DNA of 22,107 bases from a virus: positions 1 to 22,107 of IMG/VR virus record IMGVR_UViG_3300037041_000967. One strand, 5' to 3'. The notes under the pieces are model-generated. The model worked only from the letters and a program-made list of their open reading frames with translations. It did no database searches and was not told the DNA's origin. The position numbers and the translations under genes are program-made. Shown here piece by piece: positions 1,264 through 21,338 of the stretch; positions within the stretch are counted from its first letter, which is position 1; each line of letters opens with the position of its first letter.

Positions 1264-1539
1264 TCATGGATGTAACCAATAATGTGAACCCTTAGGTAGA
1301 CTTACCCAACCTTGATCGGCTTTGTAACACTCCCAATATCCGTTTTTAACGCGCCTAGCCTGACGGCCAGCTATCTTTCTTATTCTAGTTCCAGTCATAA
1401 ACGTTAATGCACCATCCGTAACAGCTGCGAAACGAACTAACCCAGATGTAAGCATACGTTTTAAATCGCGTTCAGCTATGGGCTTTAAACACAGACGTTC
1501 CCAGTCTAGATTAGTCGGTAACAATTTGTTTGATTTCAA
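1264..1539 (-). CDS. Hypothetical small basic protein, 91 aa
   Basis: I do not recognise this protein. It is 91 residues long with a basic centre (TRIRKIAGRQARRVKNGYW) and an aromatic C-terminal end with three Trp and four Tyr or His residues. That could fit a small beta-rich nucleic-acid or structural protein, but this is only a guess. The chosen ATG overlaps the end of the upstream NUMOD gene by 29 bases, long but normal for a packed phage operon. The next in-frame Met (residue 29) would remove a third of the protein. It is the last gene of the minus-strand island, with the UUCG terminator about 45 bases after its stop. Confidence 0.65.
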   Translation of the reverse strand: MKSNKLLPTNLDWERLCLKPIAERDLKRMLTSGLVRFAAVTDGALTFMTGTRIRKIAGRQARRVKNGYWECYKADQGWVSLPKGSHYWLHP

Positions 1540-2233
1540 AATAATATCCTTTAATAGGTTTGTTAATTCCTGCAGTTCTATTCTTGTTAAAAGTCGAAGA
1601 AAAATATCTTTGCTCTGGTCTTGTTAGATAACCTAAATGTTTAGCAGCTGCAGCAACGCTAGAAAATTCTCCAACCAATTCCTTATTCTCGTTATAGACT
1701 ATAACTTCCGTTCCATTATTCTTGTAAGGAATTTTAATTTTTTTAGGAATCTTAGATCCTTGTTCTGCCCATCTCCATTCGTATCCTTTCCAATTTCTTT
1801 TTTCTGAACAAGAATACCGAATGCTAATATCATCTAATCCTGTTGCTGCAATAGCTTCTGTTACGTTTGCGTGAACTTGAACTAAGTTGCCTTTCGTATC
1901 ATACATGACAACTTGTTTAACTGCACTATTAACAACCGATTCTTGTATTTTTACTAATTCATCTTCTGTGAATTTTCTAGGTCCATAGCTAAATACAAAT
2001 CCATTAGTATGGGTTAACTTACCTATGCAAACTGCACCAATTCCACTTTCATGTATACCTGTTATTTGTGCAGCTTCTTTTCGGTGTTTAAAAACTGCTA
2101 TTTGTTTTCCGTAACGATCATACTGATAAACTTCTCTGCGTCGGATCATGTGCGCTAACTGAAGTCTATTAGCTTTACAGATATCGGTTTCACGAAAGGC
2201 GTTTAAGGATTTTTGTATTTCTTCGTTGGTCAT
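1511..2233 (-). CDS. Protein of three NUMOD1-like DNA-binding repeats, no nuclease domain
   Basis: Three copies of one module are visible at about residues 34-83, 107-155 and 176-233. Each has a short beta hairpin (VYQYDRYGKQI, VVMYDTKGNLV, VIVYNENKELV), a helix rich in Ala (RKEAAQITGI, VTEAIAATGL, VAAAAKHLGY), a Ser/Ile recognition-like turn and a closing aromatic strand (GFVFSY, GYEWRW, GYYFEI). This matches the NUMOD1 family, which normally forms the DNA-binding tail of HNH or GIY-YIG homing endonucleases. No HNH (His-Asn-His) or GIY-YIG motif is present, so a DNA-binding role without cutting is inferred. Its ATG overlaps the stop of the ATPase gene by one base, and its 3' end overlaps the next gene by 29 bases. 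It could be a remnant of a homing endonuclease or a repurposed regulator. Confidence 0.75.
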   Translation of the reverse strand: MTNEEIQKSLNAFRETDICKANRLQLAHMIRRREVYQYDRYGKQIAVFKHRKEAAQITGIHESGIGAVCIGKLTHTNGFVFSYGPRKFTEDELVKIQESVVNSAVKQVVMYDTKGNLVQVHANVTEAIAATGLDDISIRYSCSEKRNWKGYEWRWAEQGSKIPKKIKIPYKNNGTEVIVYNENKELVGEFSSVAAAAKHLGYLTRPEQRYFSSTFNKNRTAGINKPIKGYYFEIKQIVTD

Positions 2234-3072
2234 TATCTAAGATATTGAGATCTCCAAACAGTTTTGTAGTCTTTCTTATAATTAATATAATCATCACACA
2301 TCATTTGCATACCTCTAATACTTTTCTTAGTATGCTTTTCCCAGGTATCAAACATAAACACACACGCTTCTTCTACAACTTTTTTAGGAACTGCCTTAGG
2401 AATTGCAGGAGTATTTAAAGCAACATCAGCTATCCAACCCCATTTTTCTTTTGGCTCTAATTTAATTGCATAGGGACGCACACGGTCTGCAATTGCTTTT
2501 AAGTGAACAATCTTTTCGTTCTTGTTTGGTTCGTCTTCTTCCGGAAGATGTATATTAGCAGTAAACACAAAAATCATTTTATCTGTCGGTACTTTAAATC
2601 CACCATTCTTAAGATCCATGTGCTTTTCAATTGCCTTTTGTTGAATCTCAGGTAATTGATTAATCCAAGAAGTCATTAACTTTTGGTGATGGTAATTTCT
2701 AGCACCGTCTAAAACGTTTTTCATTACGTTAATATTAGCACCATTTTTTAGGATCTCGTCGCAGTCATCTACTGAAATAATAGAAACGTTTTTAGGATCT
2801 AAATAATTAATCGTAGCTAATTGCACACCGAAATTAAAAATGTTGGTGTTACCTGTAACGTGATAATAATTAACTTTATTCTTTTTCATTGCTTCGTTTA
2901 CAGTATGGGATTTTCCCAGACCAGGATCGGAAGAAATAAAAAGGTGTGGATACTTGTCTTTAATACTAGCAGTGGAAATCTTGTTTCCAAGATGTATAAG
3001 ACCTTGACGCTTTTCTGCTCCTTTAAGAAGTTCAGCGTACATTTCCTGGGTGAATGATTTTGGCTTCGTCAT
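2233..3072 (-). CDS. AAA+ family ATPase
   Basis: With the start at 3072 the protein is 279 aa. It has a Walker A motif SSDPGLGKS (residues 47-55, Lys54), a Walker B strand SIISVDDCDE (97-106), a sensor 1 strand ending FTAN (Asn173) and an arginine-containing helix AIADRVRP (193-200) that would supply the arginine finger or sensor. Such ATPases remodel protein or nucleic-acid complexes; the substrate cannot be read from the sequence. I prefer ATG 3072 because an A-rich leader (AAAAAACCAAGATAAC) precedes it. A GTG at 3099 in the same frame would add nine residues. The gene overlaps the NUMOD-repeat gene by one base, so the two are probably translated together. It is not a terminase-type or RecA-type ATPase. 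Confidence 0.8.
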   Translation of the reverse strand: MTKPKSFTQEMYAELLKGAEKRQGLIHLGNKISTASIKDKYPHLFISSDPGLGKSHTVNEAMKKNKVNYYHVTGNTNIFNFGVQLATINYLDPKNVSIISVDDCDEILKNGANINVMKNVLDGARNYHHQKLMTSWINQLPEIQQKAIEKHMDLKNGGFKVPTDKMIFVFTANIHLPEEDEPNKNEKIVHLKAIADRVRPYAIKLEPKEKWGWIADVALNTPAIPKAVPKKVVEEACVFMFDTWEKHTKKSIRGMQMMCDDYINYKKDYKTVWRSQYLR

Positions 3073-3114
3073 GTTATCTTGGTTTTTTAACTTTACCACC
3101 TGGTGTTGTGCGAA

Positions 3115-3267
3115 CTATTTCGTAGTAGTAGGACATGGTTTCTTAGGTTTAGGTTGTGAGACAATTTCTTTAACTATTTTAGCTGCTGCTTTTTTCATTG
3201 CATGGTTAGTACTAGGTAATCCCAGTATATCGAACAGCATGTTGTAACTTGGTTTTTTCTTAGCCAT
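3115..3267 (-). CDS. Small basic hypothetical protein, 50 aa
   Basis: A short complete reading frame starts with ATG at 3267 and stops at TAG 3115-3117. The product begins MAKKKPSYNMLFDILGL and ends in a Lys/Pro tail (SQPKPKKPCPTTTK). It starts two bases after the stop of the previous gene, the same two-base spacing seen between the two genes before it. That spacing and its strand support a real gene in this operon. Function unknown. The basic ends suggest nucleic-acid or protein binding, but this is weak. Confidence 0.6.
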   Translation of the reverse strand: MAKKKPSYNMLFDILGLPSTNHAMKKAAAKIVKEIVSQPKPKKPCPTTTK

Positions 3268-3269
3268 GA

Positions 3270-3575
3270 TTATTGATTTAGAATTTGATCTACTATATTT
3301 TCTACTTGCTTTGCTAGATCCGGGTTAGAACTAACTACACGTACTTTGCTTCTTAAAGAATCTTGCTTTAAAAGATCGTGCTGGTAAGCCATTAGATTGC
3401 GAGTGCTTAAAAGCCAGGTAGGATCCCATTCTTCTTTGTCGATATTAAGAGCAAAAGTCATTCTCCAATTTTTAGCTAATGGATAAAGCTTGTCGCCTAA
3501 TTTAATGAATAGTTTTTTGCCTTTGCCTGAGGTACCTATTTTTAGGTTAGCCATGTTTTTTTCTCTAGTAGTCAT
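3270..3575 (-). CDS. Hypothetical protein, 101 aa
   Basis: I do not recognise this protein. The first 40 residues are basic and Gly/Lys-rich (GTSGKGKKLFIKLGDKLYPL). The middle carries a hydrophobic and Trp-containing segment (NWRMTFALNI, WDPTWLL), and the C-terminal end looks helical (NPDLAKQVENIVDQIL). ATG at 3575 lies two bases after the stop of the upstream gene; a second ATG eight codons in (MANLKIG) is an alternative start. It lies in the middle of the minus-strand island, with no sign of a signal peptide or membrane segment. Confidence 0.65.
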   Translation of the reverse strand: MTTREKNMANLKIGTSGKGKKLFIKLGDKLYPLAKNWRMTFALNIDKEEWDPTWLLSTRNLMAYQHDLLKQDSLRSKVRVVSSNPDLAKQVENIVDQILNQ

Positions 3576-3577
3576 GA

Positions 3578-3805
3578 TTAGTCTTTTAAAATTTCAGGAA
3601 TAGAATTTTGCCATTTGGTAACAGGAAAGTCGTTGGGTAAAAATACACCATCTGCATCTTCTGCACCAAAGGTTAAAGAGGTGACCCACACGCTAACGCC
3701 GTGTTCGTCTTTACCTAGGATAACTCCTACTACGTGATTCCAACCGCCATCTGCCATGTAAGCAATAGCGTCACCAGGATTGAATTGTGAAATTTGTTTT
3801 GCCAT
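3578..3805 (-). CDS. Hypothetical small protein, 75 aa
   Basis: Unrecognised. The sequence looks like a compact all-beta domain: FNPGDAIAYM, WNHVVGVILGKDEHGVSVWV and a C-terminal tail WQNSIPEIL. The pattern of short strands with GD and GKDEHG turns resembles SH3-like or KOW-like barrels, but this is a fold guess, not a family assignment. A 60-base gap with promoter-like sequence precedes it, so it may be the first gene of a sub-operon running down to 1264. Confidence 0.65.
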   Translation of the reverse strand: MAKQISQFNPGDAIAYMADGGWNHVVGVILGKDEHGVSVWVTSLTFGAEDADGVFLPNDFPVTKWQNSIPEILKD

Positions 3806-3820
3806 GATTGGGATGTTTTA

Positions 3821-3860
3821 ATTTATACCCAAATGTATGGCAATCGTTCGAAATAAAAAA
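3821..3860 (-). promoter_or_regulatory. Candidate Bacteroidota-type promoter ahead of the 3805 gene
   Basis: On the minus strand TACATTTG (3830-3837) matches the Bacteroidota -7 consensus TAnnTTTG. Nineteen bases upstream is a T run (3857-3860) in place of the -33 TTTG. A second AT-rich box, TATAAATT, follows at about 3820-3827. The site lies in the only gap of the island that is not just a few bases, 25-32 bases ahead of the ATG at 3805. Match by eye only. Confidence 0.45.
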
Positions 3861-3865
3861 ATGTT

Positions 3866-4303
3866 TTACAATAATTTTTTTTCTTCCAGCATCATGAAGC
3901 ATTCCATGGCTGAGAACACTAGGCCTAATTCTAAATAATTAGTGGGGGAATGGATGTATCCCTGTGCCTTTAAACTGCGAATCCACTTATAACTGATAGC
4001 TAATTCCTTCTTGTATTCTGGATCGTCTTTGTAATCCTGCCATAAAGCAAGTCCGTGTGTGGCTAAATAAGCTATAGAATCGGTCAAATATGCCTTTTCG
4101 CTTCTTTGAAATCGGTAACGACACAAGGTTTCCCCACTTCTTAGGAAGGTAGTAAGGCAAAAATGTGGAAATTCCCACTCGGTTTTACCACCTTTTACCC
4201 TATATTCACGGAGTATTTGTCGGCAATTGTTAAAACAATAGTCGATATAAACGTCGGACAGTGTGTTTAGGTTCACTGTACTATGCTGAAAATGCCACGC
4301 CAC
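3866..4303 (-). CDS. Hypothetical protein, 145 aa
   Basis: Not recognised. It is a 145-residue, probably mostly helical soluble protein with four Cys, many aromatic residues (MAWHFQHST, YRFQRSEKAYL, LALWQDYKDD) and a hydrophobic end (LELGLVFSAMECFMML). No nucleotide-binding or metal motif is obvious. The ATG at 4303 overlaps the end of the upstream gene by 23 bases. An overlapping reading frame on the same strand at 3987-4178 looks like a shadow. Confidence 0.65.
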   Translation of the reverse strand: MAWHFQHSTVNLNTLSDVYIDYCFNNCRQILREYRVKGGKTEWEFPHFCLTTFLRSGETLCRYRFQRSEKAYLTDSIAYLATHGLALWQDYKDDPEYKKELAISYKWIRSLKAQGYIHSPTNYLELGLVFSAMECFMMLEEKKLL

Positions 4304-4544
4304 TGTTTGCTTCTAAATATTCTACTGCTCCTTGCTTCGAGATCATATCATAGTTCTGTGCTATGAAGTCACCAGTACTTGCATAAATAGGTTTTTTCTG
4401 AGCTTCTATTTGTCTTTTAAACTCTTCTCCCATCTCTTTTTGGAATTTCTTATGTGATGCAGCAACTCTTTCATTGCGTGTCTGTACTTTTTTACGGTGC
4501 TCTTTGGCTTTCTTTCCCATTTTCTTCGGCAGTTTTATAGTCAT
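4281..4544 (-). CDS. Hypothetical basic coiled-coil-like protein, 87 aa
   Basis: Unrecognised. The first half is very rich in Lys, Arg and His (KLPKKMGKKAKEHRKK) and continues as a charged helix up to residue 50 or so. The second half is more neutral (YASTGDFIAQNYDMISKQ). A basic helix followed by a small domain fits a nucleic-acid or assembly protein, by inference only. It is the first gene of the minus-strand island. Its ATG at 4544 faces the tail block's ATG at 4573 with only 28 bases between, so the divergent promoters must overlap or lie within the genes. Confidence 0.65.
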   Translation of the reverse strand: MTIKLPKKMGKKAKEHRKKVQTRNERVAASHKKFQKEMGEEFKRQIEAQKKPIYASTGDFIAQNYDMISKQGAVEYLEANSGVAFSA

Positions 4545-4572: not shown

Positions 4573-5046
4573 ATGGCATCAGGTCCTTTATCATCATTCA
4601 AGTCAGTGGTGGAATATTTAAGAGAACTCTCCCTTTCCCATCTAAATGTTAAGCAATTCACGTTTGGCCAACTGAGCGATCTGGATGTTGAAACCAACAC
4701 ACAGAATCCTACTCAGTACCCGCTGGTCATGCTCATTCCGAGGCGTGCGGATCTAGATGCCGGCGGAAAGGTAGAGTTTTCCTTTGCACTAAGTGTACAA
4801 GACATTACGAATTACGACCTGCAAGTACAGGAAGATCAACTGAACACGACCTTTATGATACTACAGGACTTGCTAAGTCGTATGCGTATGACAACTTGGG
4901 GCGACGTAGAAGTTTATTTAGAAGTACCGGTAATGTGCAGACCATTTGTAGAATCATTCAACAACAATCTAAGTGGTTGGTCAGCAGAGATCGTAGTAGA
5001 AGTTAAGAATCCATTTAATAATTGCGACGCAGCATTTGCTAGTTAA
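4573..5046 (+). CDS. Probable tail terminator / head-tail neck protein
   Basis: The 157-residue protein starts with an amphipathic helix (SSFKSVVEYLREL). A strand pattern follows (VKQFTFGQLSDLDVE, YPLVMLIPRRA, KVEFSFALSVQDI), then a long helix (QLNTTFMILQDLLSRM) and a C-terminal strand ending in ...EVKNPFNNC. This helix plus small beta-sheet plan, and the position directly before an HK97 gp10-like gene and the tail chaperone, are typical of tail terminator or completion proteins that cap the tail tube at the neck. The family is inferred from layout and fold, not from a conserved motif. The stop overlaps the next ATG (TAATG), so the two genes are translationally coupled. It opens the + strand structural block. 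Confidence 0.55.
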   Translation: MASGPLSSFKSVVEYLRELSLSHLNVKQFTFGQLSDLDVETNTQNPTQYPLVMLIPRRADLDAGGKVEFSFALSVQDITNYDLQVQEDQLNTTFMILQDLLSRMRMTTWGDVEVYLEVPVMCRPFVESFNNNLSGWSAEIVVEVKNPFNNCDAAFAS

Positions 5047-5453
5047 TGATGAAGATAGATTTAACTCCAACATATAACAAGATTAGTAGAAAACTGGAAG
5101 CGATCCTTCGATCGCAAGCTCCTGTAGATACAGGACATTTGCAGAATTCTATTATGGTTTTGTATGACGAGAACGGATTTGTAATCTATGATACAACTAC
5201 TTATGGTATGTACTTGCATCGCGGTACGGGAGACGAAGCAGACGCAGGAGCTTCACAAGACGATTCTAGAACATACCTAAATTTAATTAGAAAAAAATGG
5301 AATCCTAATCCTGGTAAAGGAGAAGGAGGAATTAAACCTAGATATTGGATGAACTTTGCAGATTCTGTTTATGAAATGATAGACCAAGAAATGGAAAAAG
5401 CCATTACAGAAGAACTAGAAAAAGGAATTACTCAACAATTAAACGGAGCATAA
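5046..5453 (+). CDS. HK97 gp10-like neck / tail completion protein
   Basis: APVDTGHLQNSI at residues 25-36 is the hallmark of the HK97 gp10-like family, and it is followed as expected by a YGMYLHRGT strand-loop and a KPRYWM segment near residue 100. These proteins sit at the head-tail joint or tail end and help complete the tail. The C-terminal 30 residues form a charged helix. At 135 aa the protein has the usual family length. The start overlaps the upstream stop by one base; an ATG directly after it (5049) is equally possible. The stop TAA overlaps the next gene's ATG in the same way, so genes 4573, 5046 and 5453 form a coupled chain. Confidence 0.8.
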   Translation: MMKIDLTPTYNKISRKLEAILRSQAPVDTGHLQNSIMVLYDENGFVIYDTTTYGMYLHRGTGDEADAGASQDDSRTYLNLIRKKWNPNPGKGEGGIKPRYWMNFADSVYEMIDQEMEKAITEELEKGITQQLNGA

Positions 5454-6244
5454 TGATAGATTTTAAAATAGAGGACAGAAAATACACTATCGGAGCAATC
5501 ACTATAGGCAATTATTACAAGATAAAAACCCATTTAGTGCTGAACGATATGGAAGGTAAGTATCAGGTTTTACGTGAACTAACCGGATGTCCTATGGAAG
5601 ATCTTATTCGTATTCCTTACAACGAATTAAAAGAACTATTTTCTTTGTTAGAAGTAATGCTAGAAAAAAGTTTACTTAAAGATAATGCAGTTGTAAACAA
5701 GATAGCTTTTAAAGGAGTAGATTATGGTTTAGTAGATTTTGATAAAATGACTTTAGGAGAATTTGCAGATCTAGATGTAATGGTAAATGATCCAAATGCA
5801 GATAATCGTTTGCATGAAGTAATGGCTATTCTGTATAGACGAATTACCAAACAGAGATTATTCTCTTTTGATGTGGAAGAATACGACACTGACAATTACA
5901 AAGAGAGATGTAAAATATTTTTAGATCTTCCTTTAAAGCATGCAAAATCAGCTACTGCTTTTTTTTTGTCTTTCGAGCTAGCATCTTTGGGAGCTACAGA
6001 AATCTTTTCAGCACAGACTCCGAAACAGAACAAGGAGATGATGAAAAAAATCCTCAAAGTATTGGAAGAAACTGGTACACCACAATTGCCAATCTTGCAA
6101 ATCGTGATCCGCTTAAGATCGATTCAGTTACTAAATTGGGCATCAAAGAAGCTCTTAACTTTCTCGCATGGCGTCACGATGAAAACCAAAAAGCTGAAAA
6201 ACAAAGTTCAGGAAATGTTCGTAAAATATAAAATTGTAAGATGA
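5453..6244 (+). CDS. Tail assembly chaperone, zero-frame (G-like) reading
   Basis: The protein should bind the tape measure and keep it soluble until the tube grows round it. Evidence is position (after the gp10-like gene, before tail proteins and tape measure), the mostly helical domain of about 190 residues, the motif ATAFFLSFE, and above all a T-like domain in the -1 frame near its 3' end. The zero frame stays open for another 65 codons beyond the A7 run and ends at TGA 6242-6244, inside the next ATG (ATGA). Those last residues read like noise: they have poor codon use and no family look. I think the true C-terminus comes from the -1 frame, giving a 259-residue product ending at 6231. An assembly error in a homopolymer would give the same picture. 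Confidence 0.75.
   Translation: MIDFKIEDRKYTIGAITIGNYYKIKTHLVLNDMEGKYQVLRELTGCPMEDLIRIPYNELKELFSLLEVMLEKSLLKDNAVVNKIAFKGVDYGLVDFDKMTLGEFADLDVMVNDPNADNRLHEVMAILYRRITKQRLFSFDVEEYDTDNYKERCKIFLDLPLKHAKSATAFFLSFELASLGATEIFSAQTPKQNKEMMKKILKVLEETGTPQLPILQIVIRLRSIQLLNWASKKLLTFSHGVTMKTKKLKNKVQEMFVKYKIVR
5959..5967 (+). promoter_or_regulatory. Candidate -1 frameshift slip site, T9
   Basis: In the zero frame the codons are GCT TTT TTT TTG, so T TTT TTT at 5959-5965 is a perfect X XXY YYZ slippery heptamer in the right phase. A -1 slip here leads into the open frame that encodes the T-like segment. It lies about 80 bases before the other candidate at 6044. Confidence 0.45.
6044..6050 (+). promoter_or_regulatory. 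Candidate -1 frameshift slip site, A7
   Basis: Zero-frame codons are ATG AAA AAA ATC across a run of seven A. Sliding back one base after the second AAA continues AAT CCT CAA in the -1 frame. It is not a perfect heptamer, because the base before the first AAA is G, but A runs of this length also allow ribosomal or polymerase slippage. It lies immediately before the recognisable T-like peptide. Confidence 0.5.
6049..6231 (+). CDS. -1-frame T-like C-terminal segment of the tail assembly chaperone
   Basis: The -1 frame is open from 5914 to TAA at 6229-6231 and has no ATG and no usable start. From 6049 it encodes about 60 residues that include GRNWYTTIANLANRDP, DSVTKLGIKEALNFLAWRH and a charged tail DENQKAEKQ. 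A Trp-containing start, a small-residue helix, a D..TKL turn, a second helix and a charged end are the usual pattern of the second segment of G/GT-type tail chaperones, which is made only by frameshifting. Codon use here fits the phage, with A or T mostly at third positions. The shift could occur at the A7 run or at the T9 run (then the segment starts at 5965); both give a 259-residue fusion. The start given here assumes the A7 site. Confidence 0.75.
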   Translation, partial: NPQSIGRNWYTTIANLANRDPLKIDSVTKLGIKEALNFLAWRHDENQKAEKQSSGNVRKI

Positions 6245-7863
6245 TAACGGTAGTTAATTTTAGACCGAAATTTTACTCGCCAGCATATAACCCTATCATC
6301 TGGTCTGTGACTTCTGACAAAGCAACAGAAATAGATTTTAATTATGTGTTTGACATGTACATAGATGATGTTTACATTAATAGATTTATTCAAAGACCAA
6401 ATCCAGCAGGAGTTGGTATGATTGATGTAAGCTCTATGGTAGATCCTTATTTAGAAATTGGTGATTTTGCTAATGAAGTAGGAGCACCTACTTCTAAGCC
6501 TTTTAAAATGGGATACAATGCAGTGTGTAATATTAAATTATTTGCGGGAGAACAATATCGTTCTGCTGCTAATGCAGATCCAATAACTTATGATGGTTTA
6601 CAAAACGTAACTCCAGGTAATCCTTCTTATCCATTAGGAGCACAAACTTTTTATGACGTTCTTGATCCTTCGGACGATAACGATGTACTTCCTGTTATTT
6701 GTTTACCTGCTTCTTTAGCATGGAAAGAACAACAACAACATTTACAAGCACAAATGCCAGCTCCTAGTACTCCAACAACAGTTAACTATGGAGATTACTA
6801 TGGGATATTTGGTTACATGGCACCTTATGTGTTAAAAAACAATTCTGTATTTCCTTCTACTACTTGTGGTGGTCCTGGTTTATACCTATCAGAAGCACCT
6901 AGATCTATAACCGGCGGAGTGTGGCAAACCACTTCTGCTGCTCCAAGTTACAACATTAATGCGCAAGCTTTAGATTACGATCGTTACACTGTTACATTTT
7001 TAAACCGTAATCCGATCTACGAAACATACGGAACCGGAGGTTTGTTACAAAACGCTTCTCCTAAAGTTGCTTGGTTTACTTTTTATTCTGCTACAGGAGA
7101 AGTAGGAAGTTATCCTATTGGTAACTACGAAACGAACTTTGGCGGTGGTCCTAGATATTCGTGCGGTGGTTCTATTGCTACTGGCGGAACTGGATCTTTC
7201 TCTAGTGTAAACAATCAAGAATTTTTATCTCTTAGAGTTGGTCCGCAAGATTTAGAAGACTTAGGTGTATTTGCATCGCTTGGTCAAGTACCAGAGTATT
7301 ACACAGTGCAACTTTTTAATGAATTAACTATTAGCGCTGGTTGTACAGCTAGTGGTGCACCAAGTGTTCCAGTATCTGAATTACTTACTATCGATATTGT
7401 AGAAGATTGCAGTTCTTATTTGTATCCACGTGCAAGAGTTTGCTGGTTAAACTCGTTAGGTGGTAGAGACTATTGGAATTTCACTATGAAGGCAGAAGAA
7501 TCAATCGATGCTAAATCAGACGAATTCTACCAAACAGAAGTTGATTGGAGTGCAACAACACCAGTAGTTTTAACTAATGATACCACACAAAACTGGTTAA
7601 AAGGTGGTGTGCGACAATACAATAGAGCAATAAAAACTAAATGGCAAATTACTTCTGATTTTCTAACTCAAGAACAAGTAGAATTTTTAAAAGGAATTGT
7701 AAAAAGTTCTCAGACTTGGGTTTATATCGGACGCGAAGATTTTCCATATACATGTAAAGTGTCAGAGCAATCTTACACAGTTAAAACTATAAAACAAGTT
7801 AAACTGTATACCGCTAATTTTGTACTAGAATTCAGCACAGAACAATCAATGCAAAATATTTAA
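6241..7863 (+). CDS. Tail-tip / baseplate structural protein, 540 aa
   Basis: A 540-residue, mostly beta-strand protein with no signal peptide. The C-terminal third has a recognisable pattern, RARVCWLNSLGGRDYWNF followed by a K-rich linker and a DFLTQEQVEFLKGIVKSSQTW segment. I associate this layout with tail proteins of Bacteroidota phages lying between the chaperone and the tape measure or tip genes. The middle is rich in Gly, Tyr and Ser (residues 200-330). The start ATG overlaps the upstream zero-frame stop (ATGA). The next gene begins one base after its stop, so it is surely one operon with the 1432-residue protein. A distal tail or baseplate role is inferred from place, not from motifs. 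Confidence 0.6.
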   Translation: MITVVNFRPKFYSPAYNPIIWSVTSDKATEIDFNYVFDMYIDDVYINRFIQRPNPAGVGMIDVSSMVDPYLEIGDFANEVGAPTSKPFKMGYNAVCNIKLFAGEQYRSAANADPITYDGLQNVTPGNPSYPLGAQTFYDVLDPSDDNDVLPVICLPASLAWKEQQQHLQAQMPAPSTPTTVNYGDYYGIFGYMAPYVLKNNSVFPSTTCGGPGLYLSEAPRSITGGVWQTTSAAPSYNINAQALDYDRYTVTFLNRNPIYETYGTGGLLQNASPKVAWFTFYSATGEVGSYPIGNYETNFGGGPRYSCGGSIATGGTGSFSSVNNQEFLSLRVGPQDLEDLGVFASLGQVPEYYTVQLFNELTISAGCTASGAPSVPVSELLTIDIVEDCSSYLYPRARVCWLNSLGGRDYWNFTMKAEESIDAKSDEFYQTEVDWSATTPVVLTNDTTQNWLKGGVRQYNRAIKTKWQITSDFLTQEQVEFLKGIVKSSQTWVYIGREDFPYTCKVSEQSYTVKTIKQVKLYTANFVLEFSTEQSMQNI

Positions 7864-7864
7864 T

Positions 7865-10800
7865 ATGAGAGCGTTACCGCAGTTATTTGTTAGAAGATAT
7901 GATGATATAAATGATCCTAATGCATGGGTTCTTTTAGATCTGTATGATACAGATCCTATTAAAATGAATCTAAGGGCTCAAGATGTAATGGATCCAACTA
8001 TTACTGCTGCTTCTTATTCTCAAACTTTTAGGATACCGCATTCATCTGCTAATGGTAAGTTTTTTAAACAAGCTTTTAATGTTAACCAAACACTATTTGA
8101 TCCTGCAGTAAAAGCACAAGCCTACATTAACAACGAAGGACAACTTTGGATGATGGGAGTTATCCAATTAATGAATGTGTATCGTGAAGATGCTACTGGT
8201 AAAATAGAATACGAAATTCTTTTTTTAAGCGAAGTTGCTGACTTTGCCACACAAATAGGTTTAAGTTCTGGTGGAGCAACTGGTGCTAACCAAGGTGGAT
8301 TTTTAACTAACCTAGATCTTTCTAAATACAACCACGAATTAAATTATAATAACATTACACTTTCTTGGACACAAGGATTTGGTGGTGCGGGAGGAGAACC
8401 TGGCGATATAGTTTATCCATTAATTGAGTGGGGTTACAACTATACCGGTTCAGGTACTGGAAGTTTTCCTACTATTCCAACTATGGCAACTACTGGAACT
8501 GTTGGAGCAACTGGTTCTAAACCTTTCTGTGATCCTAACTTTCCTTTATTCCAAGGACAAATGAAACCCGCTTTACGTGTTAAAGCAATTTGGGATGCAA
8601 TTTTTGATCGTACAGAATTCACTTACGAGTCTGAATTTATTCAAGGTAATGATTATGTAAATTCAGGAGGAATTACAGGTTCTAGTTACGGAGACGAATT
8701 TAAAGATCTGTATATTATTTCTGATAAGTATGCAAGAGCAACTTTATATGACGCAGGATTTACTGGTGGTACTGGTGCAGTAGAAAACGTTAATGCACAA
8801 TTAACTACTAATGCTTATTATCATTATACAAACTTTGCACAAAGAATAGGTTACTTGTATGCAGCATTTGATTTTGCAAATAACTTTAACGTGTCTTCCC
8901 AGGTATTTACAATCTCTGTTCCTGGTACTTATGAATTTACACTTACTGCTGATTACCAATGGGATCCAATTATTCCACCTACTGGATCTGAAATATTTAT
9001 ATTTTCTCTTTCCACTGTAGGTGGTGGTACAAGTTATGCTTCTGGCGTTGATTTCTTTGCACCAAGTTCTTTGAGTGGAACTATAAACGCTGTTGCAGTT
9101 TACACTTTTGCTGCAGGAGATACAATTCAGTTTTATAGTAATATTGTTGGTACTCCTTTCGGAGCTAGTTCTGTTCAGTTTTATGATTTAAAAATTACTA
9201 CCACACAAACCCCAACTAATGTTTTAGACATTACAGCGGTTTTACCAGATAATATCAAGCAAATTGATTTTGTAAGATCTGTTAATGAAAGATTTAAATT
9301 TGTATGGGAACCTAGTAAAACTAAACCTAAGCATTTTATAATTACTCCTTGGAAAGATTGGATTAGACAAGGAACCGTAAGGGATTGGACTGATAAATTA
9401 AACGATAAAAAAACTTACAAGTTAACGCCTTTATTCCAGTCACAACCACGTTTTACCACTTATAAAGATCAAGAAGATTCAGACTACATAAACTACAATT
9501 ACCAACAAGCAAAAAAGCAAGTTTATGGTCAGTTAAATCAGGATTCACAAATAGAAATTATTAAAGGTACTAAAGATGTACAAGGAATTTTTGCAACTTT
9601 ACCTTTAGCACCAATCGGTTACGGCGCGGGGGCATCCTCACTAGATGTAACTGCTGCAGAGACTTTTTTAATTCCACACGTTGCAAAAAATACACCAGTT
9701 AATGATGGACCTACTAAACGTGAACCTTTACAACCTAAATTAAGACTTGCTTGGTATAACCAATTATGTGGAAGCGGCGGACCTACAACTACAATTTCTA
9801 AATCCTGGTATTTAAGAGATGACGCTGGAGTAGCAAGAGAACAGGATCAAGTGCCTTTAATGAGTGCCTATTATCCTCATCCATGGAACAACCAAAACTT
9901 TTTATTAGATTGGAATAACTCTACAGTTACTTGGAATAATACTATTGCACCTAATCCAAATGGATTTTCTGGATTTACTACTTTCCAAAGATTTTGGGGA
10001 GATTGGTACGATGCAACCTACGGTCAAATTATAGAGGTTCCTTCTCCAAACGGAGGTATGATGCAAATTAGAGATTATGCTTATATTTTTGAAGGAGAAT
10101 TTGTTTTAGATTATTCTGATATCGTAGATCTTAAATTTAATGACCTAATTTGGATTAAAGATGCATACTATTTAGTTAACTCTATTAATGATTATGTAGT
10201 AAGTGAAGCAAGTCCATGTAAAGTTGTACTTTATAAAATTAGTAATATTGATTTAGCAATTTCTGCACCAAACCAAATAGTAGAAAATATCTGTTATTCA
10301 GTTTCTTCTATTTGTAACGCAGTATGTTGTCAAGAATTTAGTACAATATCTGCAGTTTTCGTTCCAGATCCAGATAACATTGTAGTTGGTACTAGATTCT
10401 TTTTAAATGCAGCAGGATCTATTTTTGCACCAGCTGGTTATTATTCTGACGGCACTTACGTTTATACTGTAAGTACAAGTTCTGTAGTTACTACTATTAA
10501 TACTGTTGGAGTTGGTCCAGCAGATTGTGAATGTGTTCCAGAATTAGATCCATTAGAACTTTGTTACTATGGTGCAACTGGTGATGCATGTTTAGCATGT
10601 TGCTGCCAAGGTGCAACCGGAGAATTCTGGATGCAAGATAACGATCCTGCAACTTGGTTTAACAACACAGTGTTTTATGCTAACTCTACAGGTTCTGCTT
10701 TCCCTCCAAATGGTTGGTATGCTTACGATAATACTAATTACGTTTTTATTAATAACGGAATTAGAACACAATCAGGATCTTGCGATATTTGTAACTGTTT

Positions 10801-12163
10801 AATTTACGATCTAACTCCTTATGTTGGATGTACAGGATCTACTTTATGTAATGCTTCTTGTTGTGTTAATGCTGCTAATTATAATTTCTTTGCAGATTCA
10901 GACGATTTAAATACTGCTACTGTACTATTTTCTAATCAGTCAGGAACACCAGTTCCTAATGGTTGGTATTACAATGGATTAGCAGCGGTACAAGTTTCTG
11001 GAGGCACTGGAGCAGTTAATGCTACAGGAGATCCTGGATCTTGTGAGCCTTGTGTTAATGAAACGCTTGATGTATTTTTTGATTTTAATTCTAATGTAAA
11101 CGGAACTGGATCATTTGTAATTACACGTTCTTTCGACGGTTTAAATTTTATGCCTGAAAGCACTAAGAGTTTAGTTACAATTCCTGCTAACACACCATTT
11201 AATTATACTGGACCAATTTCCCCAGGCACATACGTGAAAGGCACATTAGTTTATGGTGCTTCTCATGATACAGGATTATTTACTACTAAAATTGAAGGCG
11301 GATCTACTTTAGATTCACAAAGTACAGTTAGATTTAGTACTTATACCTACACACCAGGAAGTCCAAGTACAACAGGAACCGAATACAGATTCTCTGTTAA
11401 CTTAACTGGTACTGTTTATGATTGCGGATTAAGTGGTGGTACTGCTTGGAAGTGTACACCACCATCCTGTAATATTACAGGAGGAACAGGAGGTAATTCA
11501 GTTTACGTTTACACTAACGATTTAGAAGTATGTTGTGATCCACTTTACATTTACGATCAAGGTGTTGCAAGAATTGATACTGGCACTGAAGTTTTCTTAA
11601 ACGGTAATTGCACTGGTGGAACGGGCACTTGTTATGAATGTAATGATTTTCTTTCTGGATCTTATGCTGGTAATGATTATCACATTTACGAAAACTACTT
11701 TATCTGTAACGATTTAGGAGCAGGTACAATCCAATTTAACTGGACTGCTTTAGATAGACCAAACAGATTTAATTTATATGGTCCTTCAGGTTTACTTGCA
11801 TCATCAGGTTGGGTTGGTACTGCAACTTATCCAGGACCATGGGGCGCTTCATTAAGTACACCTAACAGTGGTACATTAGGAGTTCCTTATATTAATGGCA
11901 TGTACTTACAAGTAGAAGCAGGACCTGCAGATCCAACATCATCAATTTCAGATGCATGGCAAGGTACGTTCCTTTGTTCTAATTCTTGTTTCCAATATTT
12001 TAATAACGAACCTTTTAACTGGGTAGGTGATTGGCAAGATTGCGACGGTACTTGGCACTACTCAGAAACGATAACTTCTTATGGTTCAGTTTGCGCAAGA
12101 TTCGGTACACCGTTTACAATATCAGGAACAAATTTAACGCAATCGTTCTCATGTATTTCATAA
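7865..12163 (+). CDS. Large tail-tip protein with C-terminal Cys-rich modules, 1432 aa
   Basis: The first 150 residues carry LDLYDTDPIKMNLRAQDV, a run SYSQTFRIPHSSANGKFF and then NNEGQLWMMGVIQL. I associate this opening with large tail proteins of Bacteroidota phages. Residues 150-800 are a beta-rich body with a conserved-looking centre (FVRSVNERFKFVWEPSKTK, about 475-493). From residue 817 three Cys-rich modules follow, and then Gly/Thr-rich beta sequence up to the end (C-terminal Cys in SFSCIS). It probably forms the tail tip, with the C-terminal modules facing the host. An enzyme active site is not visible. The tetrapeptide GATG recurs four times. The gene begins one base after the previous stop. 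Confidence 0.65.
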   Translation: MRALPQLFVRRYDDINDPNAWVLLDLYDTDPIKMNLRAQDVMDPTITAASYSQTFRIPHSSANGKFFKQAFNVNQTLFDPAVKAQAYINNEGQLWMMGVIQLMNVYREDATGKIEYEILFLSEVADFATQIGLSSGGATGANQGGFLTNLDLSKYNHELNYNNITLSWTQGFGGAGGEPGDIVYPLIEWGYNYTGSGTGSFPTIPTMATTGTVGATGSKPFCDPNFPLFQGQMKPALRVKAIWDAIFDRTEFTYESEFIQGNDYVNSGGITGSSYGDEFKDLYIISDKYARATLYDAGFTGGTGAVENVNAQLTTNAYYHYTNFAQRIGYLYAAFDFANNFNVSSQVFTISVPGTYEFTLTADYQWDPIIPPTGSEIFIFSLSTVGGGTSYASGVDFFAPSSLSGTINAVAVYTFAAGDTIQFYSNIVGTPFGASSVQFYDLKITTTQTPTNVLDITAVLPDNIKQIDFVRSVNERFKFVWEPSKTKPKHFIITPWKDWIRQGTVRDWTDKLNDKKTYKLTPLFQSQPRFTTYKDQEDSDYINYNYQQAKKQVYGQLNQDSQIEIIKGTKDVQGIFATLPLAPIGYGAGASSLDVTAAETFLIPHVAKNTPVNDGPTKREPLQPKLRLAWYNQLCGSGGPTTTISKSWYLRDDAGVAREQDQVPLMSAYYPHPWNNQNFLLDWNNSTVTWNNTIAPNPNGFSGFTTFQRFWGDWYDATYGQIIEVPSPNGGMMQIRDYAYIFEGEFVLDYSDIVDLKFNDLIWIKDAYYLVNSINDYVVSEASPCKVVLYKISNIDLAISAPNQIVENICYSVSSICNAVCCQEFSTISAVFVPDPDNIVVGTRFFLNAAGSIFAPAGYYSDGTYVYTVSTSSVVTTINTVGVGPADCECVPELDPLELCYYGATGDACLACCCQGATGEFWMQDNDPATWFNNTVFYANSTGSAFPPNGWYAYDNTNYVFINNGIRTQSGSCDICNCLIYDLTPYVGCTGSTLCNASCCVNAANYNFFADSDDLNTATVLFSNQSGTPVPNGWYYNGLAAVQVSGGTGAVNATGDPGSCEPCVNETLDVFFDFNSNVNGTGSFVITRSFDGLNFMPESTKSLVTIPANTPFNYTGPISPGTYVKGTLVYGASHDTGLFTTKIEGGSTLDSQSTVRFSTYTYTPGSPSTTGTEYRFSVNLTGTVYDCGLSGGTAWKCTPPSCNITGGTGGNSVYVYTNDLEVCCDPLYIYDQGVARIDTGTEVFLNGNCTGGTGTCYECNDFLSGSYAGNDYHIYENYFICNDLGAGTIQFNWTALDRPNRFNLYGPSGLLASSGWVGTATYPGPWGASLSTPNSGTLGVPYINGMYLQVEAGPADPTSSISDAWQGTFLCSNSCFQYFNNEPFNWVGDWQDCDGTWHYSETITSYGSVCARFGTPFTISGTNLTQSFSCIS
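10310..11053 (+). repeat. Three tandem Cys-rich modules within the 1432-aa tail protein
   Basis: At protein level three units of about 85-90 residues repeat. Each opens with a Cys cluster (CNAVCC at 817-822, CLACCC at 909-914, CNASCC at 995-1000). Each has a middle block like FYANSTGSAFPPNGWY with a conserved P-x-G-W/Y-Y core, and each closes with a second Cys pair (C888/C890, C973/C976/C978, C1060/C1063). A weaker fourth Cys pattern follows near residues 1220-1260. The spacing suggests disulfide or metal-held small domains. The DNA copies are well diverged, so this is not a recent duplication. Confidence 0.7.
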
Positions 12164-12173
12164 AAAATAAAAT

Positions 12174-13091
12174 ATGCCTACAGTAGCAGTTAATATAAAT
12201 TTAAGTTCAATAGGAACGGATGCTGGACCCTTTACAATTTCAGACAATGTATCGGGTGTGCTAGCAACGGGAATTCCCCGTACTTCTTTATTGGCGAATT
12301 ATGTGGTAAATGCAGACGATACTGCAACACAAATTATTGTGACATCTACAGGTGTGTGTACAACTACGGTTACAATTCCAATCGATTTTCATCCGTGCGG
12401 AGATGCGCCCCCACCACCACCGCCACCTCCACCACCTCCACCTCCACCTCCGCCAGAGGATTGTAAAGAGAATGTGGTGATTAATGTTACTGATACTGGT
12501 TACATAAAATACTACAACTGTACAACAGAAGCCACTGAATACCAATTCATTTCAAGTTTAGGTAATGTGACTTTAACTAACTGTATAAATACGGCTACAA
12601 TTTTGCCAGGATTTCCTCTGGCAGATATTGCAGACTTTACAGTTGTTAGTACAGGAGTTGCTTGTGGTACACCACCACCAACACCTCCAACACCACCTCC
12701 GCCTACACCGCCACCAAGTTTCTATACAATAGAATTAAGAATGAATGGTATGGTAGATAGAAATGGTTCGTTTACGTTGTATCAATCACCAGATAATAGT
12801 ACATGGACACAAGTTGTAGAATTAACAACTAACGGTAATGAGGTAGCAATCCAAAACTTTAATGGAACGCCTGGTTATTACTACTATTATGATGTGGCAA
12901 AAACATTAGGAGGATCTGCTTTTGCTAATGCTTATAACACGTTGTTACCTAGCGACTTTAGTCCAGGACCAATTGAAGGAGCATATTGCGGAAGTAACTC
13001 GGTAACTTTCCCGAGTTTCCAATTACCAGATCCTTACCAATCTAAAAGTTATATCAGTTTTAACGGCACGTTAGATAGTGGATGTTTATAA
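12174..13091 (+). CDS. Adhesin-like tail protein with polyproline hinges, 305 aa
   Basis: Three small beta domains are joined by proline-rich hinges. Domain 1 (residues 1-77) opens with AVNINLSSIGTDAGPF and ends in STGVC plus an IPIDFHPC segment. A run of 16 prolines follows (12408-12455). Domain 2 (about 95-165) repeats the STGV-Cys ending. A second hinge of Pro and Thr (residues about 166-181) leads to domain 3, which starts FYTIELRMNGMV and reaches a C-terminal CL. The plan suggests a tail-tip accessory that reaches outward, for example a receptor-binding or structural spacer. No family name can be given. It lies 10 bases after the 1432-residue gene and 14 before the tape measure, with A-rich leaders on both sides. 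Confidence 0.6.
   Translation: MPTVAVNINLSSIGTDAGPFTISDNVSGVLATGIPRTSLLANYVVNADDTATQIIVTSTGVCTTTVTIPIDFHPCGDAPPPPPPPPPPPPPPPPEDCKENVVINVTDTGYIKYYNCTTEATEYQFISSLGNVTLTNCINTATILPGFPLADIADFTVVSTGVACGTPPPTPPTPPPPTPPPSFYTIELRMNGMVDRNGSFTLYQSPDNSTWTQVVELTTNGNEVAIQNFNGTPGYYYYYDVAKTLGGSAFANAYNTLLPSDFSPGPIEGAYCGSNSVTFPSFQLPDPYQSKSYISFNGTLDSGCL
12408..12455 (+). repeat. Run of 16 proline codons
   Basis: Sixteen consecutive CCN codons occur between an Ala and a Glu codon. The codons are mixed (CCA and CCT most often, with CCC and CCG), so this is not a simple repeat made by slippage of one triplet. A rigid polyproline II rod of about 5 nm is the expected structure (about 0.31 nm per residue). The Pro/Thr hinge at about 12670-12715 is a second one. 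Confidence 0.9.
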
Positions 13092-13105: not shown

Positions 13106-15487
13106 ATGGCAGGTAAAGTCCAAATTAAAATAGACGTAGATTCAGAATCAGTAGAATTTGCAACCGACAGAACCCTAACCTTGACCGAAAAAACAAGGTT
13201 ATTAAAAAAGGAATTGCAAACAGTTCCTGAAGGTACTAAAGAATGGCATATTATAAACAATACGTTTAATGACACTAAAGATGCTTTAGATCGTGTTAAC
13301 ACAAAGTCTAAAGATATCTTTGGTACGTTCAGTTTACTCCCTGGTCCAATCGGACAGATTAGTGGTTCGTTAGAACAAACTATTGATGCTTTTAAAATAT
13401 TTGGAAGTTTAAAAACTACCGATATAAAAGCACAACTTGGAAATCTTGCTCAAGATTTTAAGGGCATGGCTTCTACCATTGGTAATCTAACTGGTATTAC
13501 TAAATTATACACTGTTACCAATACAGCTCTTTCTAAAGCATTAGTTGGTGTTGGTGTTGGTGAAGCAGCTGCTGCTACAGGAGCAAGAGCACTTTCTGCA
13601 GCGTTAATAGCTACCGGACTTGGAGCATTTGTTGTTTTACTAGGTGTTGCTGCTTCTGCATTTTATGAAATGGCGACAGGTACTGATGAAGCAGCTGCAG
13701 CAGAAAAAAGACTTAATGATGAATTAGAAAGAACTACTACATTATTAAACATGGATCTTGCAGATGCTAAGCGTAGGCAAGATAAAAGAATGTCCGAAAT
13801 GCGTCGTGATGGTGCAACAGAAGCTGCAATCAGAGCGCAACAAGGAAAAGATCTACAAGAAAATTTAAGAATCCAAGAAGGTGCTTTACGTGAGGCTGTA
13901 GCAAACGAAAACAAAATAATGAAGGAGGGCACAGGAGATCTGAAAAAAGCCCAAAATGATAGAAGTAAAATAGAAGAAGATATAGCAAATCTTAACACTG
14001 CAATTCAAGTTAAAGCTAATGACAATATAGCTGCTGCCAATAAAGAAAGACAAGCAATTACCGATAAAGCAAACGCAAAAGCAGAAGCGCAAGCAGCTAA
14101 AAATAAAGCAAATCGTGAAAAAGAATTAGATGAAATTAAAAAAGGTAATGAAGATGCTTTACAAGAAACTATGTCCGAAAAAGACAAAGAAGAACGTTTA
14201 GTTAACCAAAAGTATGAAAATTTAATTACGCTTGCTGAAAAATATGGAATGGATACTACCCAACTTAAAAAGGGTCAGGTAGCAGCACTTGCAAAAATCA
14301 CAGACAAGTATAATAAAGAAGATCAAGAAAGAGAAGAAAAGGCACAAGAAGATAGACTTAAAAAATTAGAACAGTATTTAGATAAAGAACAAAATCTAAG
14401 AGATAGCAAAAGAAATTATCAGTCACAAAAAGCACAACAAGGTTTAGCTAAACAATTATTCGATGGTTTAATTACGGAACAAGAATACCAAGATAAGTCT
14501 TTAGCTTCTAATTTAGCTTTTGCTCAGAAGAAACAAACTGATGACGAAAATACCTATAACACAAATAAGTTAGCATTAGATACTCTATACGCTAATAAAG
14601 GTATTTCTCAAAAACAATACGAAGAAAAATCTGCAGAGGATAAAGCAACTTACGATCAACAAGTATTAGATAATGATGTTGCAGTAACGGATGCAAGTTT
14701 AGCTATAGAACAAAATGCTTTCGATAAAAGAAAAGCTTTGGCCGAAGCAAGTGTTGAAGTAACAAGGGCAGAAGCAGAATCTAAAGCAGCTTTACAATTT
14801 GCTTATGCAGATGCTGTTGGAATGGTTGGTAGTTTACTTAGCCAATTTGCAGGTAAGAATAAAGGACTTGCTAAAGCAGGTGTTATTCTTGAACAAGGTG
14901 CAAACATTGCTAAGATCTTAATTGGTGCATCTTCTTCTATTGCACAACAGACTGCAGCAGCAAACGCACAAGCAGCTATTTTTCCTCCATTAGCACCTGT
15001 AATTTTTGCTAACTTAGCAAGAGGAATTGTAACAACTAAAATTGGTGCAGGTATTGGAGTTGCAGGAGCAATTGCAGGAGCAGTAAAAGGGATAGCAGAT
15101 ATCAATTCAGCAGACACTGGAGAAAAAGCTTCTAGCGGCGGAGGTGGAGGAGATGCTAAAGCAGTAGGAACCACATTTGCTAAAGGTGGTTTACTTAGAG
15201 GACCAAGACATTCTGAAGGTGGAATTAAAACTTCTTTCGGAGAACTAGAAGGAGGTGAGTATGTAATCAATAGACGATCCACAGCGTCATTCTTACCACT
15301 CTTAACGGCAATAAATTCTGCTGGCAATAGAAAGTATCAGGACGGAGGAATGACGTTCAATATGGACACTGTACAAGCAATGATGGCAGCACAACAAGCA
15401 CCGATTGTTAAGACTTATGTAGTTGCTTCTGACATGACTTCACAACAAGAAGCTAATAAGAAGCTTATGGATTTGGCAAAAATCTAA
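13106..15487 (+). CDS. Tail tape measure protein
   Basis: At 793 residues it has the classic layout. Residues 1-160 are mixed, then comes a hydrophobic stretch (about 162-188, ending VVLLGVAASAFYEMA). A long charged, Ala/Lys/Glu-rich coiled coil runs from about 195 to 580. A second hydrophobic region (about 600-672, with IGAGIGVAGAIAGAVKG) precedes a Gly-rich linker. The end contains AKGGLLRGPRHSEGGI and GELEGGEYVINRRS, a motif often seen near the C-terminus of tape measure proteins. The protein spans the tail lumen and sets its length; from the usual 0.15 nm per residue this predicts a tail of roughly 120 nm. It is probably the last gene of the tail operon. No lytic transglycosylase or peptidase domain is visible. 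Confidence 0.9.
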   Translation: MAGKVQIKIDVDSESVEFATDRTLTLTEKTRLLKKELQTVPEGTKEWHIINNTFNDTKDALDRVNTKSKDIFGTFSLLPGPIGQISGSLEQTIDAFKIFGSLKTTDIKAQLGNLAQDFKGMASTIGNLTGITKLYTVTNTALSKALVGVGVGEAAAATGARALSAALIATGLGAFVVLLGVAASAFYEMATGTDEAAAAEKRLNDELERTTTLLNMDLADAKRRQDKRMSEMRRDGATEAAIRAQQGKDLQENLRIQEGALREAVANENKIMKEGTGDLKKAQNDRSKIEEDIANLNTAIQVKANDNIAAANKERQAITDKANAKAEAQAAKNKANREKELDEIKKGNEDALQETMSEKDKEERLVNQKYENLITLAEKYGMDTTQLKKGQVAALAKITDKYNKEDQEREEKAQEDRLKKLEQYLDKEQNLRDSKRNYQSQKAQQGLAKQLFDGLITEQEYQDKSLASNLAFAQKKQTDDENTYNTNKLALDTLYANKGISQKQYEEKSAEDKATYDQQVLDNDVAVTDASLAIEQNAFDKRKALAEASVEVTRAEAESKAALQFAYADAVGMVGSLLSQFAGKNKGLAKAGVILEQGANIAKILIGASSSIAQQTAAANAQAAIFPPLAPVIFANLARGIVTTKIGAGIGVAGAIAGAVKGIADINSADTGEKASSGGGGGDAKAVGTTFAKGGLLRGPRHSEGGIKTSFGELEGGEYVINRRSTASFLPLLTAINSAGNRKYQDGGMTFNMDTVQAMMAAQQAPIVKTYVVASDMTSQQEANKKLMDLAKI

Positions 15488-19526: not shown

Positions 19527-21338
19527 ATGTCAGGAACATTAAAATTAGGAGCAACGGGTGGCCAAATTCTATTTTCAACAAGTGGAACATCTGGGCTTGG
19601 TACTCCAGCAACTGGATATGGATCACTTTACTACGGAACTGACAAACAGTTGCGTATAATAAATGACACCGGTGCAATTACAATCCTTGGAGCAGGCGGA
19701 ACAGGAAGCGGAACCAGTGGAACTTCAGGAACGTCAAGCGGAGGAGGTTTAGTCTACGGCGGTGGTAGTGTAACAAGTAACGTTGCGGGTTCAGTAGATT
19801 TATCTGCTTTAGCTGCAAATACCACAGGTGCTTTTAATACAGCAATTGGAGATAATGTTTTAGCTGCAAATACTATAGGTATAAATAATACTGCTGTTGG
19901 TTATAATGTTTTAGTTGCTAATACTACAGGCGGAAATAATACTGCTGTTGGTTATAACGCATTACTTTCTAATACTTTTGGTAGGGATTCAGTAGCAATT
20001 GGTTCAGAGGCTTTAGAATTTAATACAACAGGGATTCAAAACATTGCTATTGGTTCTTTAGCTTTAAATCAAAACACAACGGGAGGTCAAAATATAGCTA
20101 TCGGAGATAGAGCATTAGAAAATAATAATGCAGGTTTAAACACAGCAATTGGTACTTATGCTTTAAGAAATAACACGGTAACTCAAAACGTTGCAGTAGG
20201 AGTATATGCTTTAGAAGCAAATACTACTGGAGCTAATAATACAGCAGTTGGAGCTAGGGCATTAAATGCTAATACTATAGGTCAAAGAAATACTGCTTTT
20301 GGTAGTTTAGCATTAAACGCTAACACTACAGGGGATAATAATACAGCAATTGGAACTAATTCTTTACTATTAAATACTACTGGATCTAATAATACTGCAT
20401 TAGGACAGTTTTCTTTACGTTCGAATACTATTGGATCTTTTAATACTGCGATTGGTACTATTGCTTTATTTGATAATACTACAGGAAGTTATAATACTGC
20501 GATTGGCCGCGAGGCTTTACAAAATAATACTACTGGATCATTTAATAGTGCATTAGGACCAAATGCTTTAAATTCAAACGGTATCGGGTCTTATAATACT
20601 GCAATTGGACCGGGTTCATTACTTTTTAATAGTACAGGAAGTTTTAATACTGCTGTTGGCTACCAATCCTTACGAGGAAATACTATAGGAACTCTTAATA
20701 CTGCTGTTGGTTACGAGTCTTTATACGCAAATACTACAGGGGATAATAATACTGCAGTTGGGTACTGGGCTTTATACGCAAATACTACAGGAACTAAAAA
20801 CACTGCAGTTGGATCGGCTTCTTTAAAATCTAATACTATAGGTAATGATAATACTGCAGTTGGATTAGATGCTTTACAAGCAAATACTACCGGATCTAAT
20901 AATACTGCAATTGGGTCAGATGCTTTACAAGCAAATACAATAGGATTTCAAAATGTTGCAATTGGTTCTGCTGCTTTACAATTTAATACTGTTGGAAATA
21001 CTAATATAGCAATTGGAGATTCTTCTTTAGCAACTGCTACTGGATCTAATGGTAACGTAGCAATTGGAGACGATGCTTTACGTATTCAAACAACAGGTTC
21101 TAATAATATTGCAATTGGTAATCAAGCAGGAAATAACATTACAACTGGATCTAACAATATAATCCTTGGAGCTACCGGTGGTACTGCAGGAATTCAAGAT
21201 TCTATTGTTTTATATTCTGGGGCAAATACAAATGTAACTATTAACTCAGGAGCTATTGTAACAGCAAGCGTTTCTTCTAATCGTTACATTCCTATTGTAA
21301 TTGGTGGTACCACATATAAATTATTACTAGCTACATAA
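19527..21338 (+). CDS. Phage fibre with YadA/Hep-Hag-type head repeats, 603 aa
   Basis: The N-terminal 55 residues (SGTLKLGATGGQILFSTS, GYGSLYYGTDKQLRI, NDTGAITIL) form an anchor that is copied in the gene at 21905. A GTSGTSGTS collagen-like linker follows (about 60-72). Twenty-seven units of 17 residues, consensus N-T-A-x-G-x-x-A-L-x-x-N-T-T-G-x-x, occupy about 97-547. This is the head-repeat pattern of trimeric autotransporter adhesins, which form left-handed beta rolls as trimers. The end (RYIPIVIGGTTYKLLLAT) looks like a conserved cap. A trimeric host-contacting fibre is inferred. In units 2, 10 and others the NTTG turn becomes NTIG. The stop overlaps the next ATG (TAATG). Confidence 0.85.
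   Translation: MSGTLKLGATGGQILFSTSGTSGLGTPATGYGSLYYGTDKQLRIINDTGAITILGAGGTGSGTSGTSGTSSGGGLVYGGGSVTSNVAGSVDLSALAANTTGAFNTAIGDNVLAANTIGINNTAVGYNVLVANTTGGNNTAVGYNALLSNTFGRDSVAIGSEALEFNTTGIQNIAIGSLALNQNTTGGQNIAIGDRALENNNAGLNTAIGTYALRNNTVTQNVAVGVYALEANTTGANNTAVGARALNANTIGQRNTAFGSLALNANTTGDNNTAIGTNSLLLNTTGSNNTALGQFSLRSNTIGSFNTAIGTIALFDNTTGSYNTAIGREALQNNTTGSFNSALGPNALNSNGIGSYNTAIGPGSLLFNSTGSFNTAVGYQSLRGNTIGTLNTAVGYESLYANTTGDNNTAVGYWALYANTTGTKNTAVGSASLKSNTIGNDNTAVGLDALQANTTGSNNTAIGSDALQANTIGFQNVAIGSAALQFNTVGNTNIAIGDSSLATATGSNGNVAIGDDALRIQTTGSNNIAIGNQAGNNITTGSNNIILGATGGTAGIQDSIVLYSGANTNVTINSGAIVTASVSSNRYIPIVIGGTTYKLLLAT
19815..21167 (+). repeat. Array of about 27 repeats of 51 bp (17 aa)
   Basis: The repeat unit codes for NTAxGxxALxxNTTGxx. 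Most units are exactly 17 residues; the ones near residue 200 (with AGL and VTQ) lose one residue. Synonymous positions differ freely between units, so the array is kept by protein selection and is old. The last unit has INTAIG-like sequence degraded to NNIILG before the cap. Confidence 0.9.

Follow-up and report, generated by a model that had tools for sequence, protein, structure and literature searches.

Does one gene in the tail module of an uncultured virus encode two proteins, which share a beginning and part at a run of T residues? The question arose from a virus record of 22,107 bases (hereafter the window, meaning the whole stretch of DNA analysed), in which terminase, neck, tape-measure and protease genes are recognised by profile matches. 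An original prediction, made from the letters of the sequence, had proposed that a -1 frame hidden behind an ordinary ORF is reached by a programmed frameshift in a tail chaperone. The explanation that we consider likely, and hold with good confidence, is that a programmed frame transition yields two proteins from a single gene, which is probably a tail assembly chaperone of the G/GT type: translation of the zero frame would give a 263-aa protein, whereas a fraction would switch to the -1 frame at the T9 (5959-5967), producing a fusion of 259 aa whose C-terminal domain of 88 residues is conserved. The features concerned are the following:

5046..5453, plus strand: upstream neck/tail-completion-like gene (phrog_5, E 3.6e-8), context for the tail module
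5453-6244, plus strand: zero-frame ORF, 263 aa, the unshifted product; stop TGA at 6242-6244
5453..5965, plus strand: conserved N-terminal domain, 171 aa, common to both products; confidently modelled (pLDDT 85.8)
5959..5967, plus strand: T9 slip site; the ribosomal heptamer T_TTT_TTT occupies 5959-5965
5965..6231, plus strand: -1-frame C-terminal domain, 88 residues (5965-6228), stop TAA at 6229-6231; fusion of 259 aa
6241..7863, plus strand: next gene, conserved, 540 aa, no assigned function

Elsewhere in the window, a block of minus-strand ORFs (1264-4544) lies between the terminase and tail genes and opposes the direction of the structural genes; one of its members (2233-3099, minus strand) matches phrog_1250, function not assigned. 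ORF 12174-13091 (plus strand, 305 aa) contains two tracts, one a long poly-proline and the other proline-threonine, and ORF 19527-21338 (plus strand, 603 aa) consists mostly of short repeats of the type NTTGxxNTAIGxxALxAN.

Within the window, the -1 frame proved to be open and protein-like from 5914 to the TAA at 6229-6231, as had been predicted, and the anticipated third-position A+T bias was found as well, with values after the T-run of 0.70 in the -1 frame versus 0.52 in the zero frame. The predicted length of the fused product, 259 aa, was also correct. The claim that the -1 frame has no start codon holds for ATG and GTG, but one TTG is present at 6136. Likewise, the 60-residue peptide to which attention had been drawn is real and conserved, but represents only the second part of the 88-residue domain, which starts at the T-run and begins FVFRASIFGSYRNLF; the -1-frame consensus, FFF-x-FR-x-SIF-xx-Y-x-NLF, also begins at the run.

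To place the slip site, relatives were collected by scans with the neighbouring 540-aa protein, which yielded 62 viral loci, and each locus was then matched with two profiles, one for the zero-frame N-domain and one for the -1-frame C-domain; loci L036-L083, which had not been used to train these profiles, matched the C-domain profile at about 1e-10 to 1e-23. A misaligned mixed alignment of partial rows (N-domains) was left out of the results. Two scans of bacterial genomes found no relative, tblastn of the window fusion or the L018 fusion against phage records gave no useful matches, and two cultured Nonlabens phages were reached via the terminase and a structure search. The slip had first been placed between 6040 and 6100, near 6045, from the window and its closest relative (L002) alone, because zero-frame third positions in this pair vary up to about 6040. 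This placement was abandoned once more relatives had been compared and their -1 domain was seen to begin at the T-run; the A-run near 6045, a candidate slip site, is absent in L002.

The slip-site codons in the zero frame of the window are GCT TTT TTT TTG, and their T9 is the only one in the window; as 2.6 runs of that length are expected by chance on both strands, the weight of the run lies in its conservation and not in its rarity. In every slip-type contig holding both halves, the T-run ends the zero-frame domain and starts the -1-frame domain. The shift is -1 in 44/44 distinct relatives, with T9 in 28 of them, T10 in 15 and T8 in one (L060), and all 44 sequences, as well as both Nonlabens isolates, have the heptamer T_TTT_TTT in the correct frame; most relatives are metagenomic contigs, and since the sequences are related these counts are not independent events. 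Plain ORF calling misses this conserved -1-frame domain across the uncultured phage group. A slip signal of 9-10 T combined with two frames kept open is unusual, although hidden tail proteins of this sort are already known; no published description of this slip site was found in the open-access literature.

T-runs are error-prone both in sequencing and in replication, so that a frameshift mutation, a decayed gene or a homopolymer sequencing error could produce such a layout in a single sequence. For the group as a whole this explanation is refuted, its probability being negligible, by an identical shift shared among 44 distinct sequences, drawn from many samples, and two isolates, and by the selection on the -1 peptide described below. 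The mutability of long homopolymers also raises phase variation, in which replication slippage on the run would toggle the fusion within a population. This is disfavoured and highly improbable, as all 44 distinct sequences are in the -1 phase and the T10 cases keep it; because they do, these cases are attributed to substitutions beside the run and not to inserted bases.

Selection on the two frames was examined by holding one peptide fixed at a time. When codons were redrawn with the zero-frame amino acids fixed, the -1 frame was open in no more than 2.5e-4 of draws for each of 9 loci, and with the zero-frame peptide fixed, the similarity of the -1 peptides exceeded the level imposed by the zero frame in 36/36 pairs (z 5.2-10.3). 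Because the frame is so rarely open in redrawn codons and its peptide is conserved beyond the zero-frame constraint, the open -1 frame is not a product of chance and its peptide is under selection. When the -1 peptide was fixed instead, 14 stops were seen in the zero-frame tails of 24 representatives versus 129.6 expected, nearly all of them in the last codons (L041 excepted), while the number of stops in the third frame of the same representatives was near expectation. No conservation of the zero-frame tail sequence was found between distant pairs (z near 0); close pairs show an excess of zero-frame similarity, which is expected from shared descent and is absent from the null model. Given few stops and a z near 0 in distant pairs, the zero frame stays open although its sequence is not preserved. 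This is the opposite of the pattern that the original prediction had named as counting against it, a -1 peptide without homologs beside a conserved zero-frame tail.

Four relatives (L004, L006, L030 and L031) carry the N and C domains in one ORF without a T-run. A profile of the spliced fusion aligned with a profile of L004, L006 and L031 collinearly across the junction, over 201 columns (E 4.4e-25), compared with E 8.8e-8 for the N-domain alone. As these distant relatives encode the N+C protein as one ordinary ORF, they provide evidence, independent of the frameshift argument, that the fusion is an intended product. Comparison with these natural fusions could also address why phages need two forms of the chaperone.

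The two cultured Nonlabens phages possess the N-domain, the T9 and the -1-frame C-domain in the order found in the window:

L084 3947-4641 (NC_018272.1): P12024L gp40/gp41; T9 at record positions 24388-24396
L086 137-831 (NC_018271.1): P12024S gp38/gp39

In GenBank the gene of these isolates is split, gp40/gp41 and gp38/gp39 being annotated as separate hypothetical proteins that resemble the N-domain and the second C-domain part of one slip gene. The predicted junction peptide of the fusion is MLEAPLIAYSSCILFFLSFR in P12024L and SATAFFFVFR in the window gene. In Flavobacterium phage 6H (L085, KC959568.1, about 10047-10927, minus strand), a weak N-domain match is followed by an unannotated protein-like -1-frame peptide; there is no T9 at that site, only a T6 at the FF codons with a -1 stop right after it. 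Taken together, the programmed -1 transition that had been proposed is strongly supported by a shift, a slip site and a -1 domain kept in 44 distinct relatives and two cultured phages, and by the single-ORF fusions elsewhere.

The GenBank call of a small ORF, gp41, in P12024L would agree with separate translation of the -1-frame domain from a start of its own and not as part of a fusion. We regard this as very unlikely, given that the window's -1 frame lacks ATG and GTG, that the conserved domain extends right to the slip site, whereas gp41 spans only its second part, and that the single-ORF relatives carry the C-domain as a fusion.

In most relatives the zero frame runs 82-105 codons past the slip (58-60 in the L041-type group), and in most representatives both frames stop no more than about 30 nt from where the next gene starts, one of the two stops often forming an ATGA; the L077 and L049 rows were left out of this comparison. 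In the window, the zero-frame TGA (6242-6244) shares bases with the next gene's ATG, at 6241. The proximity of both stops to that start suggests coupling to the next gene, and the zero frame may be kept stop-free so that unshifted ribosomes, too, would finish there. In P12024L, the next gene lies about 130 nt downstream and the zero frame closes 25 codons after the slip. The L041-type T10 loci (e.g. L041, L043, L047, L050 and L064) have a variant of this end arrangement: their zero frame terminates about 20 codons ahead of the -1 frame, whose own stop falls within the start region of the next gene.

A zero frame that nearly all relatives keep open over about 90 codons, together with the deficit of stops reported above and extra similarity in close pairs, might also be read as dual coding, in which the zero-frame tail would be a further functional C-terminus under selection for its sequence as such. 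We consider this unlikely: in distant pairs the zero-frame similarity does not go beyond what a stop-free frame and the -1 peptide impose, the close-pair excess is expected from shared descent, and the frame ends early both in P12024L and in the L041-type group. With a zero frame that is open and unconserved, this gene is a clean case in which to ask whether a frame can be held open for coupling alone.

We infer that both products are made, and two mechanisms can be proposed for the slip. In the first, RNA polymerase would slip on the T9 and add an extra U to some of the mRNAs; slippage of bacterial RNA polymerase has been reported for runs of nine A or T residues (PMC5009743), and programmed transcriptional realignment has been associated with Tn where n exceeds 8 (PMC3711429). 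A homopolymer of the length expected at such a transition, nine or more T or A residues, is present in 43/44 distinct sequences and both isolates, though the heptamer needs only seven. In the second, ribosomal -1 frameshifting, tRNAs on TTT TTT would slip back one base on T_TTT_TTT with no polymerase slippage. Such slippage is known from lambda G/GT and many other phages and is what tail chaperones usually rely on (PMC5009743); the heptamer is in frame throughout, and the T8 locus L060, which keeps only the heptamer, is a small point for the ribosome and against the polymerase. On the other hand, ribosomal slippage accounts poorly for a run kept at nine or more where seven suffices, and in P12024L the run is displaced upstream by one base with respect to the codons and is nevertheless nine long. 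Downstream RNA structure showed no average excess over shuffled controls (mean z -0.2 at 80 nt, with pseudoknots outside the test), and no conserved Shine-Dalgarno-like element was found among the relatives, such elements being sporadic; both results favour the polymerase over the ribosome. The conserved third Phe in the fusion could also hold the run long for amino-acid reasons. Because the run is held at nine or more, we judge polymerase slippage to be at least as likely as ribosomal frameshifting and lean slightly towards it, and rate the ribosomal mechanism a little below an even chance. The fuller proposal, that slippage of RNA polymerase on the T9, rather than of the ribosome, sets the two chaperone forms and that the overlapping zero frame stays open for about 90 codons only to let ribosomes of either frame finish at the next gene's start, is tentative, and we would not back it at even chances.

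As to function, the slip gene is probably a tail assembly chaperone of the G/GT type, which is our best guess because of its position in the tail module, the frameshift itself and one weak structural match. Against BFVD structures, the N-domain gave 35 matches at E ≤ 1e-3, all of them phage or marine-virus proteins without assigned function, and the sole entry named tail assembly chaperone was a weaker match (E 9.9e-3, prob 0.99). The -1 domain was left aside in the structure search because it folded poorly when modelled alone (pLDDT 51). Searches of Pfam, NCBIfam and the PDB (by sequence and by fold) returned no usable match, and PHROGs gave only phrog_32199, function not assigned, with no named chaperone family. 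Compared with what is expected of a G/GT gene, a conserved -1 transition adding a C-terminal domain is found in 44/44 relatives and 2 isolates, with the slippery T_TTT_TTT at the transition, within T8-T10, in every sequence. On the other hand, three ORFs (6241-7863, 7865-12163 and 12174-13091) separate the slip gene from the tape-measure-like gene at 13106, to which a G/GT gene would be directly upstream, and an unshifted product that ends soon after the slip is seen only in P12024L. A point against the explanation of two products from one gene is that the single-ORF relatives seem to do without a separate short product.

Four known arrangements can be compared with that of the window. The single-ORF relatives, from uncultured viruses, share the order of N and C domains and also lie beside terminase and tail-module genes, but have neither a T-run nor a frame change, and in L004, L006 and L031 the gene comes right after the terminase and before a tail-terminator-like gene, unlike in the window. 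The Nonlabens phages differ by their annotation as two proteins and, in P12024L, by the early end of the zero frame and the distance to the next gene; as P12024L is cultured, the proposed arrangement is testable there. Lambda gpG/gpGT and the G/GT proteins of long-tailed phages (PMC5009743) resemble the window gene in that one tail-module gene gives a long and a short product by a -1 shift, and in lambda the C-terminal domain is confined to the shifted product, as predicted here. The window gene differs from them in that a T9 run replaces the lambda heptamer, that the unshifted frame stays open, which makes the unshifted product equal in length to the fusion, that it is not directly upstream of the tape-measure gene, and that no sequence similarity to named chaperone families is detectable. 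In Shigella mxiE and Thermus dnaX, programmed transcriptional slippage (PMC5009743, PMC3711429) also involves nine T or A residues at the transition and a C-terminal domain added from another frame; the window gene differs from these in being a phage tail-module gene and in holding a ribosomal heptamer within its run. Should the slip be made by RNA polymerase, a textbook case of ribosomal recoding would gain a transcriptional counterpart.
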